64,000 bases of DNA from contig NZ_WOTN01000001.1 of NCBI RefSeq assembly GCF_010993745.1, forward strand, positions 2,979,235-3,043,234, given 5' to 3'. The notes below the pieces were generated by a model. It had not been told where the DNA came from, did not search any database, and saw nothing but the letters and a program-made list of their open reading frames with translations. A program made the translations under genes and the position numbers. This document shows, piece after piece, positions 19,283-30,584 of this stretch; position 1 is the first letter of the stretch, and each line of letters begins with the position of its first letter. This DNA comes from Fodinicola acaciae (GTDB taxonomy: Bacteria; Actinomycetota; Actinomycetes; Mycobacteriales; HKI-0501).

Positions 19283-19777
19283 CTACCTCTCTAGGGCCCA
19301 GTCCTGATATACGGACTTGTTGCAACCATAGCTTCGAAGCCCGAACGCGTAACTGTGATCGATGCACCCGTACGTCGCATTGTTTTGAAACCACATGAAC
19401 AAATAGCCTCCACTCGAGTAGATCCCCACTGAGAATTGCTGGAAAGGTAGTCCGTTGCATGCCGTCGCGCGGAGGTGAAACTGGAAGCTGTCGTCGACGC
19501 AGGCGTTCGTCATGTAGTTCCGCACGCTCCACAGCGAACCTGACGAGTTGAGCTTCTGCAGCCAGAAAGACTGGTACCCGTTGTTGAGACAGTTAATGGC
19601 ACGCAGGCCAATCGAGCTGTCGTCGAGACAGAATCCTGTCGAACGGTTGCGCAGATGATACCAACCGGACTCGACGCTCTCCACGCTCGCAGTGGCACGC
19701 ACAGGATTATTGAACGCAACCACCGTAAACATCAACGCCAACAGTGTCATCGTTGCCAGAAGTCGGGTTCTTCGCAT
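19283..19777 (-). CDS. Secreted ricin-type beta-trefoil (lectin-like) protein
   Basis: 164 residues, ATG at 19777 with GAAGGAGG about 12 nt upstream. The signal peptide MRRTRLLATMTLLALMFTVV is cleaved near VRATAS. The mature part shows three trefoil repeats, each with a C-(L/V/I)-D motif and a closing Q-x-(F/W): FCLDDS...YQSFWLQ, ACVDDSF...FQQFSV, GCIDHSY...YQDWAL. LR-A/S-x-x-C pairs give probable disulfides. Such stand-alone RICIN domains bind carbohydrate; nothing else is attached. A longer frame back to 19939 adds an unlikely N-terminus. Confidence 0.85.
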   Translation of the reverse strand: MRRTRLLATMTLLALMFTVVAFNNPVRATASVESVESGWYHLRNRSTGFCLDDSSIGLRAINCLNNGYQSFWLQKLNSSGSLWSVRNYMTNACVDDSFQFHLRATACNGLPFQQFSVGIYSSGGYLFMWFQNNATYGCIDHSYAFGLRSYGCNKSVYQDWALER

Positions 19778-19939
19778 AATTCTCCATCCTCCTTCAATCC
19801 GCGGGGTACATGTCTGTTTTACCGGCAACGACCGGGAGAAGTGGCGGTTCCAGCTGTTGATACGTACAACTGCGTATGCCTGAACAACGAGTGAGTCCGG
19901 ATGAATGTCACTGATCTGCTCGCCGTCATGTACAGCCAT

Positions 19940-20380: not shown

Positions 20381-20893
20381 TCAGCGACGTGCGCCTGTGC
20401 GCATTCGGCGCAGACGGATCCCGCAGTCGGCGAGGATGTCGTGGAGTGCGGTGATGTCCGCGTCGGTGAGAGCAGAATGCGGCACCGGTATCCATCCGGC
20501 CTCGGCCACCAGCATCAGGATAGGCCCGGTCTCGCGGACTTTCCGTACCGACGACCATGGAATATCCGATTGGACGGTCGGTGTGGTGATCCGGATGCCG
20601 CGCTCACTGAGCCGGTAGTCGCGCAGCCTTTCCGGTTGCCGCAGCAGTTTTCCAAAGACAATCTCCCTGTATACAAAAGGGGAAATAATCGCGGCGACGC
20701 CGAGAACGACCAGCATGGCGCCGAACAGAGCCGCTGATCCGAAACGCAAAGGGACCAGGAACATCAGTCCGATCAGCGCAACGACGGCACCGATGACCGG
20801 TGACCAGTGGACGCGCCAACCCAATACGGCCCGAGTCAGTGCGCGCGCATAGCCGCGGTCCAGGGGGACTTGGTAGTTCACGTCGATCATCAT
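20381..20893 (-). CDS. YcxB-like two-helix membrane protein, paralogue 1
   Basis: 170 residues. An N-terminal cytoplasmic strand (MMIDVNYQVPLDRGYARALT) precedes two adjacent helices (VIGAVVALIGLMFLVPL, LFGAMLVVLGVAAIISPF) and a C-terminal PH-like YcxB domain (YRLSERGIRITTPTVQSDIP, WSSVRKV, ending in a helix). The IPW-x-x-V motif is the YcxB hallmark. It starts with an ATGA overlap to the similar gene upstream. Function of the family is unknown. Confidence 0.75.
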   Translation of the reverse strand: MMIDVNYQVPLDRGYARALTRAVLGWRVHWSPVIGAVVALIGLMFLVPLRFGSAALFGAMLVVLGVAAIISPFVYREIVFGKLLRQPERLRDYRLSERGIRITTPTVQSDIPWSSVRKVRETGPILMLVAEAGWIPVPHSALTDADITALHDILADCGIRLRRMRTGARR

Positions 20894-21384
20894 TTTGCCC
20901 CAGCGAGTTTGCGGTTGATAAGGAATGTCTCCAGCTCGGCGACGTCCGCGGGTGCCATGGCCGCGGCGGGTAGGACCACCTGGGTGCCGCCGAACAGGTG
21001 AAGCCGGAACGTCGCACCGGTTCGGCGCGCCGCCCGCACTCCCGTCCAGGCGAACCGGCTGGTGGCCGACGGCGTGCTAACGGCGATCTCTTCGTCGGTG
21101 AGGTGGTAAAGCCATCGTCGCGGTATCCGGGACAGTCGCAGCCAGGCGCGGAGGGTCGAGACAAGGGGTACGGTCGCCACGATCAGTCCGACGATCATGA
21201 ACGCGGTGCCAACGGGTTGAACGTCTGAGTCGTGGTCGAACCAAAGGTAGGTGTAGCAGGCGAGTCCTATGAGAGCGAAGACGGCTCCCATGACGGCGGC
21301 CCTGAGCCGCACGGGCATGGCTCTCGCCCATAGCACGGTGCGGGCATGCCTGCTGTTCGCCGGGAATTCAATGTGAATGTCCAC
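20890..21384 (-). CDS. YcxB-like two-helix membrane protein, paralogue 2
   Basis: 164 residues with the same plan as the next gene: a short beta start (MDIHIEFPANSRH), two helices (VMGAVFALIGLACYTYLW, GTAFMIVGLIVATVPLV) and a C-terminal PH-like domain (YHLTDEEIAVSTPSATSRFA, WTGVRAARRTG, VLPAAAMAPADVAELETFL). Its stop overlaps the start of paralogue 1 (20890-20893), so the two are translationally coupled and could form a hetero-oligomer. It sits 40 bp downstream of the fused sigma factor gene on the same strand, so a single transcript is possible. Confidence 0.75.
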   Translation of the reverse strand: MDIHIEFPANSRHARTVLWARAMPVRLRAAVMGAVFALIGLACYTYLWFDHDSDVQPVGTAFMIVGLIVATVPLVSTLRAWLRLSRIPRRWLYHLTDEEIAVSTPSATSRFAWTGVRAARRTGATFRLHLFGGTQVVLPAAAMAPADVAELETFLINRKLAGAK

Positions 21385-21423: not shown

Positions 21424-23049
21424 TCAGGGAGCTAGCGGGGATCGGATCTGGGTGAAACGCACCCCGTCGGTGGTGAGCAGGTAGAGCATGCTCGCGGCTG
21501 CGGACGGTCGCACCAGACAGGCTTGTTGATCGGCCGTTTGGACTAGGTCAGCGGCAGCGAAATCCCGGCTCACAGCGTCGAAAGTCAGGCCATGATCCCG
21601 GCTAACCGCCAGGTTGGCGACATCGACGACACCAGGCTCTTGGGTGACGAGGAGGTTTCCGTTGGGAAACGCGCAGGCGGAAAAAGGAAAAAGAGGGGCG
21701 TCTACTTTGCCCCGGGCGATCCAATCCCTGCCCCGGTTGGTGCTGACGATGACTCGAAGCTGACGGATGCCGTCGTCCTGCAAGACGTACGCGGTTGGCC
21801 CGCTTACCGCCGCGGCGCCGTATTGCGCGATGTCCCGGGTTTTCCAGCTTCGCCCCTCGTCGTCACTCGTCGCCACGTACCGGCCCGACACCAGTTGCCA
21901 CAATGTGCCGTCACTGCCGCGGAACATGCTCATCGAAGCGTCACCCGTGCCTCCGGGGTTCGCGAGCGCGTATCGTTTTCCGGTTGCCGGATCGGCCGTG
22001 CCGATGCGGCAGACGTCACCTGAGCACCGTGGCACAAGTGGCCAGCCGGCTGGCACCGTGGCTAGCGGCGGTCCGGCGGCGGGTGCCGGTTGCCGTATCC
22101 AGGTGTGACCGCCGTCTGTCGTCAGCATGTCGCCGAGCTGTAGGTGGTCTCGCGACAGCAGCACCGGCGGCACGGTCCGTTGGACATTGATCCCCTCAGG
22201 CAGTCCCCATGCCTTCCAGGTCCGGCCGGCGTCGACCGTCCGAGCCATCGCGAGCCGGCTGTCCGCCGTCTCCACCAAGGCGTAGAACGAGCTCACGTCG
22301 ACCGCGCCCAGCTGCCACACCCGGTGAGCGCCTGCCAACGCCACCGGTCTGGTCAGCACCTCCGGACGTGCCGGCACGATGACGAAAACCAGCAGCAGCG
22401 CGGCAGCCACCGCGAGTGCGCCACCGGCAAACCCGGTGAGCCGGCGGCGCAGCTTGCGCCGTCGTCCGCGCTGGTAGGCGGCCGGCAGGTCGGGGCCGGT
22501 GGTAGCGGCGGCCGTACGCACCCGCGCGGCCGCTGCGGACAGGTCCGATTCGTCGATGTTCTCGTCGAGGAGGGCCGCCAGCGCCGAACGCCCGCGCGCC
22601 AGCCGCGACTTGACCGTACCGACCGATACTTCCAACGACCACGCGATCTCCTCGAGCGACTGGTCGCCGAAATAGAACCGTACGAGCGTCTCGCGCTGTG
22701 CGAGCGGAAGCTGCGCCAGCGCGTCGAGCACGGCGACCCGGTCCGGTGACGGTGTGCCATCAGCCGTGTCGATCGCCGCCAATTCCAGCCGCTCGGCGTG
22801 GCGCTTGGTGCGCCGCCAGCGAGCGCGGATCACGTTGCGCGCGACCGTGTGCAGGTAGGCTTCCGGGCTGTCGCTCGCCAACACCCGCGACTCGATCGCA
22901 ACGGCACGCGCGAACGCCTCCTGGACGGCGTCCTGCGCCTCGTTGAGGTTGCCGGTGAGCGCGTACATGCTGGCCACCAAGCGGGGATATGACCCACGGA
23001 AGAGCCCCTCGAGTCCTCCGCTGGCCATCTCCGTCACCTCGTCGATCAT
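21424..23049 (-). CDS. ECF sigma factor fused to a membrane-anchored Asp-box sensor domain
   Basis: About 541 residues in one uninterrupted frame. Sigma region 2 is at 16-82 (ALTGNLNEAQDAVQEAFARA), region 4 at 103-158 (LPLAQRETLVRFYFGDQSLE, EIAWSLEVSVGTVKSRLARG), a basic linker at 185-205, one transmembrane helix at 206-226 (TGFAGGALAVAAALLLVFVI) and an extracytoplasmic part at 230-541. The last contains five Asp-box/BNR-like repeats (TVDAGRTW, TTDGGHTW, SDDEGRSW, STNRGRDW, SRDHGLTF), implying a beta-propeller. No zinc anti-sigma motif is present. Start uncertain: ATG 23049 or 23028. The split version is at 28927-30584. Membrane tethering, and release by proteolysis, is inferred. Confidence 0.8.
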   Translation of the reverse strand: MIDEVTEMASGGLEGLFRGSYPRLVASMYALTGNLNEAQDAVQEAFARAVAIESRVLASDSPEAYLHTVARNVIRARWRRTKRHAERLELAAIDTADGTPSPDRVAVLDALAQLPLAQRETLVRFYFGDQSLEEIAWSLEVSVGTVKSRLARGRSALAALLDENIDESDLSAAAARVRTAAATTGPDLPAAYQRGRRRKLRRRLTGFAGGALAVAAALLLVFVIVPARPEVLTRPVALAGAHRVWQLGAVDVSSFYALVETADSRLAMARTVDAGRTWKAWGLPEGINVQRTVPPVLLSRDHLQLGDMLTTDGGHTWIRQPAPAAGPPLATVPAGWPLVPRCSGDVCRIGTADPATGKRYALANPGGTGDASMSMFRGSDGTLWQLVSGRYVATSDDEGRSWKTRDIAQYGAAAVSGPTAYVLQDDGIRQLRVIVSTNRGRDWIARGKVDAPLFPFSACAFPNGNLLVTQEPGVVDVANLAVSRDHGLTFDAVSRDFAAADLVQTADQQACLVRPSAAASMLYLLTTDGVRFTQIRSPLAP

Positions 23050-23091
23050 CGTCACATGGTGCAGAGTCGACTCGGCACGCAAAGGTTCCCG

Positions 23092-24203
<1,112 letters not shown>

Positions 24204-28926: not shown

Positions 28927-29427
28927 ATGACGACAGATGCGGCGGCCGCGCTGGAGCGTCTCTACCGGGACGCGGCGCCGCGGCTCGTGCTGGCCGCGTA
29001 CGCGCTGACCGGCGACCTGGACGAGGCGCAGGAGTGCATGCAGGAGGCCTTCGTGAAGGCCTGTGCGCATCCGGCGCGGATCCTTCGTGCGGACAACCCG
29101 GTCGCCTGGATGCGCACGATCACCGTCAACGTGGCGCGCGACCGGCTGCGCCGCAAGCGCCGGTTCCGCGTGCTGCACCGGCTGCTCGGCCAGCCCGACG
29201 ACGTACCGGCCGCGACCCCCGACCGGGTGGCGATCCTCGGCGCGATCAAGCGGCTGCCGATCGAGCAACGCGAGGCGGTCGCCCTCTACTACCTGGCCGA
29301 CCTGGACGTACGCGAGATCGCCGAGATCGTCGCGGCGTCGGTGAACACAGTGAAATCCCGCCTGCTGCGGGGCCGCCAGGCCGTGGCCGCCGCGCTCGGC
29401 GAATCCGTCCCGGGAGGTGCCAAATGA
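28927..29427 (+). CDS. ECF sigma factor (SigE-like group)
   Basis: 166 residues. Region 2 is at about 10-75 (AYALTGDLDEAQECMQEAFV, AWMRTITVNVARDRLRR), region 4 at about 100-155 (LPIEQREAVALYYLADLDVR, EIAEIVAASVNTVKSRLLRG). GGGGAG precedes the ATG. Its stop overlaps the start of the next gene as ATGA, and the next gene encodes a membrane-anchored Asp-box protein, presumably its anti-sigma sensor. The sigma part is the closest in-window relative of the fused protein at 21424-23049. Confidence 0.92.
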   Translation: MTTDAAAALERLYRDAAPRLVLAAYALTGDLDEAQECMQEAFVKACAHPARILRADNPVAWMRTITVNVARDRLRRKRRFRVLHRLLGQPDDVPAATPDRVAILGAIKRLPIEQREAVALYYLADLDVREIAEIVAASVNTVKSRLLRGRQAVAAALGESVPGGAK

Positions 29428-30584
29428 CCGACCCACTGGAGACCCAGGCCGCTGCCGGCAGGTCCGCGCTGCTGGAGGACATGCGCCTGCCGGCGTTCGA
29501 CACGCTGCGCGGCGCCAGCCGGCGACGCAGGCTGCACAACGGCCTGCTTGCCGCCGCGGCGATCGTGGTTGTCGCCGCGGTCGCGCTGATCGCCACGTTC
29601 CGGCCGCACACAGGCCGGCCGGAGGGCGGCGCGATCGTCGCCAAGACCATCGAGAAACCGGCGCAGGTCGGCCGCTGCTCGTTCCATCCGCTGAGCGAGA
29701 AGGTGATCTTCCATGTCTTCTACGCGTACAAGGGCTGCCTGCCCGACGAGGCGACCGGCCTGAGCTACGCGGTGACCACCGACGGCGGCCGGCACTGGAA
29801 GCTGTACGAGGCGCCCGTCGACGATCCCACCTGCATCGACCTCGTGCCGGTCGGCCCACATGACGCGATGATGTGCGACTACATCACCCACGACGACGGC
29901 GTCACCTGGGTCAAGCGGCCCGGCCCCGCCGCCGACGTGCCGTCGATACCGGCAGGCTGGCTGGCGATCGCGTCCGGCCCCGACCAAAACGTCCTCACCG
30001 CGGTCAACCCGCGGACCGGCGAGCAGGCACGGCTCGCGAACGGCAGCGCGATCGGGCCGAGCACCCCGAGCGAGGCGCCGATCCTCGCTCCGGACGGGTC
30101 GATCTGGGTGGTCCAACGGCCCGGCTACACGCCAGGGACCGGACGGATCAGCCCCGACCGCGGTCGCACCTGGCACTCGGTGGTGCTGCCGGCGCCGTTC
30201 CAGAAGACGCCACTGCTGTCGCTGACGACCACCGACGGCCGGACCGGATATGCCCTCACCGCGGACGGGACCAAGGCCTGGGCGCTGTTCCGTACGACCG
30301 ACGGCGGCGCGACCTGGTCGACGGTGCGACGCGGCATCACCGACGTCACCGGCAACCTGCTGCCAGGGCCCGGCACCGCGGTGATCGAGGCCGGCGACGG
30401 CCCACCGCGGATCAGCACGGACGGCGGCCGCACTTTCCGGCCGCTGCCAGACACCACCGGCACGTACATGGAGCGCACGCCGACCGGGGTGTACGTGCTC
30501 CGTAAGGACGGCGAGGCAAGCACGAAAGAAGTCCAGATCGCCGGGCCGTCGCTGCGGTTCAGCACCGTCAAGTCGCCGGTCTAA
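29424..30584 (+). CDS. Membrane-anchored Asp-box sensor, probable anti-sigma partner
   Basis: 386 residues. A 39-residue cytoplasmic N-terminus (with [15 protein letters not shown]) precedes a single helix at 40-59 ([20 protein letters not shown]) and a large outside domain. That domain has five Asp-box-like repeats ([40 protein letters not shown]), as in sialidase/Ycf48-type propellers. No HxxxCxxC zinc motif is present, so if it is an anti-sigma factor it is not of the ZAS class. Translationally coupled to the sigma gene. The stop overlaps dgt's stop tail to tail. Same plan as the fused protein at 21424. Confidence 0.8.

Follow-up and report, generated by a model that had tools for sequence, protein, structure and literature searches.

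A sigma factor fused to a predicted Asp-box membrane sensor in Fodinicola acaciae, and its two-gene relatives

The fused gene and its neighbourhood

The window, the whole stretch of 64,000 nucleotides of Fodinicola acaciae DNA analysed here, carries on its minus strand a gene in which a sigma factor and a membrane-anchored outer domain share one reading frame.

21424..23049 (-): fused sigma/transmembrane/Asp-box coding sequence, 541 codons and one terminal stop in translation
22801..23004 (-): residues 16-83, sigma-70 region 2 (Pfam PF04542 Sigma70_r2, 43.2 bits, over the cut-off)
22579..22737 (-): residues 105-157, sigma-70 region 4 (Pfam PF08281 Sigma70_r4_2, 48.3 bits, over the cut-off)
22429..22560 (-): residues 164-207, basic linker, with HMM similarity to the cytoplasmic tails of split partners
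22372..22428 (-): about residues 208-226, single transmembrane (TM) helix (hydrophobic segment at about 207-225 by hydropathy; helix 209-224 in the AlphaFold2 model)
21427..22371 (-): residues 227-541, extracytoplasmic domain, a predicted beta-propeller (AlphaFold2 and structural matches)
22216..22239 (-): residues 271-278, Asp-box 1, TVDAGRTW (loose pattern)
22099..22122 (-): residues 310-317, Asp-box 2, TTDGGHTW (loose pattern)
21844..21867 (-): residues 395-402, Asp-box 3, SDDEGRSW (loose pattern)
21721..21744 (-): residues 436-443, Asp-box 4, STNRGRDW (loose pattern)
21580..21603 (-): residues 483-490, Asp-box 5, SRDHGLTF (loose pattern)

The initial annotation had described a single polypeptide, and this description is borne out: one frame of 541 residues holds sigma regions 2 and 4, a basic linker and one TM helix, with the basic residues on the sigma side of the helix. 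Both sigma regions exceed their Pfam cut-offs, identifying the protein as an ECF sigma factor. Among the NCBIfam families it matches the SigE family TIGR02983 best, with 113.9 bits where the cut-off is 141.55, and "SigE-like" is therefore the right wording. Translation may start at the ATG at 23049 or, in the same frame, at 23028, where a GAGGTG stretch precedes the ATG in the sequence. GC content at the third codon position runs from 0.87 in the sigma part through 0.84 in the linker and 0.79 in the TM part to 0.75 in the ectodomain; near the TM helix the first position slightly exceeds the third, and the second is lowest in every scanned stretch. The codon composition gives no sign of a change of frame, the linker included. 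A motif scan of the protein found no HxxxCxxC, its eight Pfam matches to an E value of 1 include neither a zinc-finger family nor FecR, and in place of a carbohydrate-binding module the Pfam matches contain BNR/Asp-box (PF02012), just above its cut-off at 28.4 bits against 27.

The five Asp-box repeats previously claimed for the ectodomain are found with a loose pattern, against at most 2 in 20,000 shuffles of the ectodomain, while a strict pattern recovers two. Structure prediction, which had been proposed as a check for a propeller after residue 230, gave a model (AlphaFold2, mean pLDDT 80.8, pTM 0.55) with an all-beta domain past the TM helix, whose structural matches are mainly propellers. 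The top Foldseek matches include GH74 xyloglucanase, YCF48 and sortilin, with rmsd mostly 7 to 20 A and low TM-scores owing to the several domains in the model; VIA-align superposes the model on several kinds of propeller over about 270 residues, with Z about 15 and rmsd about 4. As unrelated propeller families appear among the VIA matches at similar Z, only the fold is supported. A fusion from Catellatospora (L127), of a second kind discussed below, gave a comparable model (pLDDT 78.4, pTM 0.54; ectodomain mainly beta, sigma part poor), with YCF48 and sortilin as best structural matches. The ectodomain is thus a predicted Asp-box beta-propeller in both kinds of fusion, the matches indicating fold, not function.

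The following genes and frames lie nearby.

20890..21384 (-): YcxB-like protein downstream, possibly in the same operon (PF14317, 23.4 bits, cut-off 23.3)
20381..20893 (-): second YcxB-like protein, overlapping the first (PF14317, 28.4 bits)
19283..19837 (-): protein weakly similar to ricin-type lectins, scoring under the Pfam cut-off
22989..23876 (+): recombinase frame beside the fused gene, in which recombinase and zinc-ribbon domains, but no resolvase N-terminal domain, were found
24128..24203 (-): tRNA-Asn
28927..29427 (+): sigma gene of a split paralogous pair (sequence matches)
29424..30584 (+): its partner, with cytoplasmic tail, TM helix and Asp-box domain, starting in an ATGA overlap

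The recombinase frame and the tRNA-Asn gene are perhaps the remnant of an integrated element. The split pair (28927-30584, plus strand) sits about 6 kb from the fused gene within the same window.

Paralogues, split relatives and the linker

The Fodinicola acaciae genome (8.86 Mb, 94 matches to sigma region 2) encodes two further full-length fused paralogues, 47% and 44% identical to the window protein over the matched part (44% and 43% when aligned), and a fourth fused copy (L031, C2:1138000-1145000) that stops early in the ectodomain. The frame that follows this truncated copy resembles, by inspection, an HNH-type protein. Altogether 21 related cassettes were kept from this genome, 4 of them fused, 16 split and 1 with no partner found; these were chosen as matches to the window protein and hence are no census. 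Two or more Asp-boxes are present in 15 split and 3 fused cassettes of the 21. Comparison of the called neighbours by blastp found no gene neighbourhood shared by the fused genes of this genome. From the same genus, a draft genome contains a full-length match (L049) with both parts in one frame parted by a single TAA, and, at a second draft locus (L060), the sigma and Asp-box parts share a frame interrupted between them by a single stop, and the sigma part is itself frame-broken; with these other frame breaks, the draft loci call for caution.

The matches numbered 149: 116 split, 19 fused and 14 with no partner found, as judged from hydropathy and the longest partner frame, so that "no partner" may mean a missed one. 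One of the 19 fused matches, L164, was rejected as a frameshift artefact with region 4 out of frame, leaving 18. Thirteen short matches (in loci L048, L057, L058, L059 second, L060, L061, L118, L123, L124 and L143) had been dropped. Removal of six of the 149 (L033, the second of L039, two from L045, L056 and L164) left 143, which were thinned at 92% identity to 107 for the tree.

The usual arrangement is two overlapping genes, one for a SigE-like sigma factor and one for a single-pass membrane protein, in keeping with the annotation's remark that ECF factors are as a rule separate from membrane anti-sigma factors. The start of the partner precedes the stop of the sigma gene in 109 of 115 split pairs (L033 excluded), a count biased towards overlap, since the script searched from 60 bases upstream of the stop and accepted the first start codon it met; even so, 86 of the 115 have an offset of -5, -1 or -8. 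Given genes coupled and overlapping in this way, fusion through the loss of one stop would be easy. The missing zinc motif noted at the outset is likewise general: HxxxCxxC occurs in none of the 115 split-partner tails, and its absence is therefore no oddity of the fusion. These tails, measured to the TM helix, have a median length of 43 residues (range 34-92), with 94 of 115 under 50. Class I anti-sigma domains are reported to average about 101 residues, those below 50 being set apart as possible class II (PMC7406223).

A profile HMM built from 43 tails of split Asp-box partners scores the window linker at 18.6 bits (residues 167-204) and that of the paralogue L029 at 18.1. Among controls, the best of 360 shuffles reached 12.0 bits and the second-best 8.9, with 161 of the 359 scored shuffles above 0, and the best of 114 C-terminal tails of split sigma factors reached 4.9. 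Seven of the 18 fused linkers do not exceed the best shuffle (L112, 12.0; L127 and L152, 11.8; L031, 10.3; L030, 6.9; L150, 6.2; L170, 1.6). The fusion linker thus appears to resemble the partner's cytoplasmic tail, a likeness carried by the 11 stronger linkers and by position. A profile search of the PDB with a 41-position tail profile, which has little power, returned two matches at chance level (best E 1.9), neither an anti-sigma factor by name. A hand-written juxtamembrane motif is found in 41 of 115 split tails, 17 of 18 fused linkers and 98 of 2300 shuffles, but it was devised post hoc and is not relied on.

Distribution and origin of the fusions

Public genomes were searched for relatives with two short peptide patterns from an alignment (A1), and the best 80 of 159 relatives were kept, representing 78 distinct loci; the share of fusions among them is no census. 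Among these loci, 58 are split and 15 fused, and no partner was found for 5. Leaving out L164, Asp-box fusions make up 11 of the 14 fused loci among these best 80 of 159 relatives, in Catellatospora, Catelliglobosispora, Rhizocola and Allorhizocola, and all 11 of these Catellatospora-type fusions adjoin trpS. Split pairs also stand beside trpS in Longispora (L141), Micromonospora (L153) and three more genomes (L094-L096). Four of them (L141, L153, L094 and L096) share a supported clade with the fused genes, L095 having been thinned out of the tree. Two other split pairs beside trpS, from Dactylosporangium (L140) and a Nocardioidaceae assembly (L100), take other positions in the tree and are perhaps not orthologous. 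The trpS locus is therefore split in some genera and fused in others.

In the tree of 107 sigma domains, the four Fodinicola acaciae fusions form one clade (SH-aLRT 100) and the Catellatospora-type fusions another (95), the latter nested in a clade (99) that also contains split Asp-box pairs. The starred branches force two changes and the whole tree requires five. A single origin of all Asp-box fusions, with both groups held as one clade, was rejected at a p-AU of 0.0191, in a test whose groups were named after the tree had been seen. The tree suggests that the same fusion of sigma factor and sensor arose more than once. Further sigma/TM fusions that have no Asp-boxes occur at L113 (Rhizocola), L150 (a Propionibacteriaceae assembly) and L170 (Catelliglobosispora); they are long branches of unsure placement.

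A profile of the Catellatospora-type fusion matches 54 of 250 genomes from one family: 14 over the full length with no stop, spread over 4 genera, and 40 chiefly over the sigma part, of which three were inspected and are split. No uninterrupted full-length matches of the window type outside Fodinicola acaciae were found in 397 genomes of the order searched with the protein, in 394 genomes of the class, or in 397 genomes of the order searched with alignment A1, the three best candidates per genome being scored in each case. A scan of public genomes for related loci with the window protein alone gave no matches. The refuting condition set out in the annotation, homologues always encoded as two genes and a fusion confined to this assembly, does not hold, as fused copies are present in the same genome, in other named genera and in 14 of the 250 family genomes.

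Candidate promoter and mode of control

A short distance upstream of the fused gene is one further feature.

23064..23089 (-): candidate promoter of ECF type, GGAACC-N15-GACTC, 14 bases upstream of the ATG at 23049

This pattern, framed after earlier dyads had been seen and then counted, precedes 16 of the 143 cassettes, as compared with 0 for the reversed pattern and for 50 shuffles. Thirteen of the 16 carriers are trpS-locus genes (11 fused, L141 and L153), the others being the window gene, L035 and L109, so that about four lineages are represented. The whole Fodinicola acaciae genome has three such sites and none of the reversed pattern: one before the window gene, one before the split pair L035, and one, probably a chance occurrence, beside a secY-like gene (named by inspection). 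GGAAC-N16-CACTC stands upstream of the paralogue L029. The three intact fused genes share AACCT-N15-ACTC, which the truncated fourth copy lacks, and some shared dyad is also found in 12 of 680 triples of other cassettes; GGAACCT-N15-ACTC occurs three times in the genome, twice before fused genes, and its reversed pattern likewise three times. A blind search for dyads over the 21 Fodinicola acaciae cassettes gave nothing above shuffles, and a sigma-70 scan found no promoter. The GGAACC-N15-GACTC site is similar to ECF promoters that have a GGAAC -35 element, and on the simplest reading these sigma factors may transcribe their own genes.

The RsgI/SigI systems differ from the window protein in the type of sigma factor and in their sensors, and consist of two genes. 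Clostridium thermocellum, with nine RsgI proteins, also has several paralogous sigma/membrane-sensor systems in one genome, and the cleaved RsgI fragment is reported to be degraded by ClpXP (PMC12203970). IutY of Pseudomonas putida (ECF243) combines, like the window protein, an ECF sigma factor and a membrane regulator in one polypeptide, and the chain is reported to be freed by cleavage by Prc and RseP; its regulator, however, is a cell-surface-signalling anti-sigma factor with an outer-membrane receptor, whereas the window protein has an Asp-box propeller and no match to such a Pfam family (PMC5411451; PMC8999054). ECF52 (SCO4117), ECF48 and ECF53 of the Actinobacteria are also ECF sigma factors with a C-terminal TM extension, but a zinc-finger domain is described for them, joined in SCO4117 by a proline-rich region and a carbohydrate-binding module, where the window protein has no zinc motif and an Asp-box propeller (PMC8999054; PMC5826349). 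These fused groups are expected to work by proteolysis, and at least 26 ECF groups are listed as having extensions (PMC8999054). Systems of the TIGR02983 type, in which a SigE-like sigma gene overlaps a gene for a membrane protein, are homologous to the window protein in both halves and are its likely source, although they are two genes whereas the window protein is one chain that scores below the TIGR02983 cut-off. Membrane-fused ECF factors are thus known, and what is new here is the Asp-box propeller sensor, the lack of a zinc motif and the repeated fusion of a coupled SigE-like pair. The literature searched, outside which lie the 2021 ECF classification and the 2015 actinobacterial survey, yielded no paper on Asp-box sigma sensors, and a numbered ECF group may already contain these proteins.

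We favour, at a probability of roughly 0.55, a membrane-tethered sigma factor that derives from a fused sigma/regulator pair and would be released by intramembrane proteolysis, as for IutY. The fusion would have arisen when a stop was lost between two overlapping genes, one for a SigE-like ECF factor and one for a single-pass partner with an outer Asp-box propeller, since both halves are homologous to split genes and the locus of the relatives is split or fused according to genus. The product would span the membrane, sigma facing the cytoplasm and the propeller the exterior, as the basic linker suggests. Absent a signal, the short tail and the membrane tether would keep the sigma domain from RNA polymerase; a ligand or damage sensed by the propeller would lead to trimming and intramembrane cleavage, as reported for IutY, and the freed sigma factor could then transcribe its own gene from the GGAACC-N15-GACTC site along with a further regulon. 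With sigma and tail in a single chain, release could not depend, as it can for RsgI, on the cleaved fragment being destroyed completely, and intramembrane cleavage alone, or trimming that halts at region 4, would have to suffice. Peptidase M50 genes are present in Fodinicola acaciae, but as they also occur in 14 of 14 control genomes they support proteolysis weakly. In the Catellatospora-type fusion L127 region 4 ends at residue 153 and the TM segment begins within the next 30 residues, a spacing that speaks for tethering rather than for a folded inhibitory domain. So short a spacer in the Catellatospora-type fusions leaves little room for an inhibitory domain and is a point against our own preferred explanation.

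The tail might instead be a short anti-sigma segment of class II, like that of CnrY, on which the propeller shifts its grip across the membrane, with no proteolysis and with sigma working while tethered. The 94 of 115 partner tails shorter than 50 residues have the size set apart as possible class II, and CnrY is described as having two helices that wrap CnrH (PMC7406223), but the PDB search with the tail profile gave nothing significant, the initial part of the tail is missing in the Catellatospora-type fusions, and a single TM helix would be a poor conduit for a binding switch; we regard this as unlikely, if the most serious of the competing explanations. A copy that has decayed or lost its function within a degenerate mobile element seems to us improbable. 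The adjoining recombinase frame with no resolvase N-terminal domain, the tRNA-Asn gene at 24128 and the truncated fourth copy would fit decay, against which stand the intact 541-codon frame, coding in composition throughout and with five Asp-boxes, the promoter-like site that has been kept, and the two other fused paralogues, both intact. Slightly less credible still is a sigma factor bound permanently to the membrane and transcribing membrane-proximal DNA: the architecture is compatible and the linker is basic, but the literature searched offered no precedent, and the basic stretch is also found in split partners and so fits topology rather than DNA binding. That a sequencing or assembly frameshift joined two genes is barely conceivable and is rejected for this gene. 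One such artefact does occur among the relatives, at L164, but here the fused paralogues are 43-47% identical with a conserved linker, and the codon composition is continuous.

That the same pair of genes has fused repeatedly gives good grounds for a direct action of the membrane protein on its sigma factor, even though no known anti-sigma domain was found in it, and the membrane sensor thus probably controls sigma directly. More broadly, and with less confidence than we place in the preferred tethering scheme, we tentatively suggest that the SigE-like sigma factors of actinomycetes may be governed by an undescribed large class of membrane regulators, in which a tail of about 40 residues holds sigma with no zinc, one TM helix crosses the membrane and an Asp-box propeller often serves as receptor; each cassette might have its own extracellular ligand, and at least two fusions would have produced one-protein switches from membrane to promoter. 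Fodinicola acaciae alone has 18 or more Asp-box cassettes, of which at least 15 are split and 3 fused and intact, pointing to a large set of outward-facing propeller receptors. With these proteins one can test how a sigma factor may be silenced by so short a tail, or by a tether alone, and the fused form offers a compact natural component for sensing from membrane to promoter.

Sigma genes of this family also occur in tandem arrays, with four at one Fodinicola acaciae locus (L032, C1:2262000-2275500) and five at the locus L050 (G001:C59).
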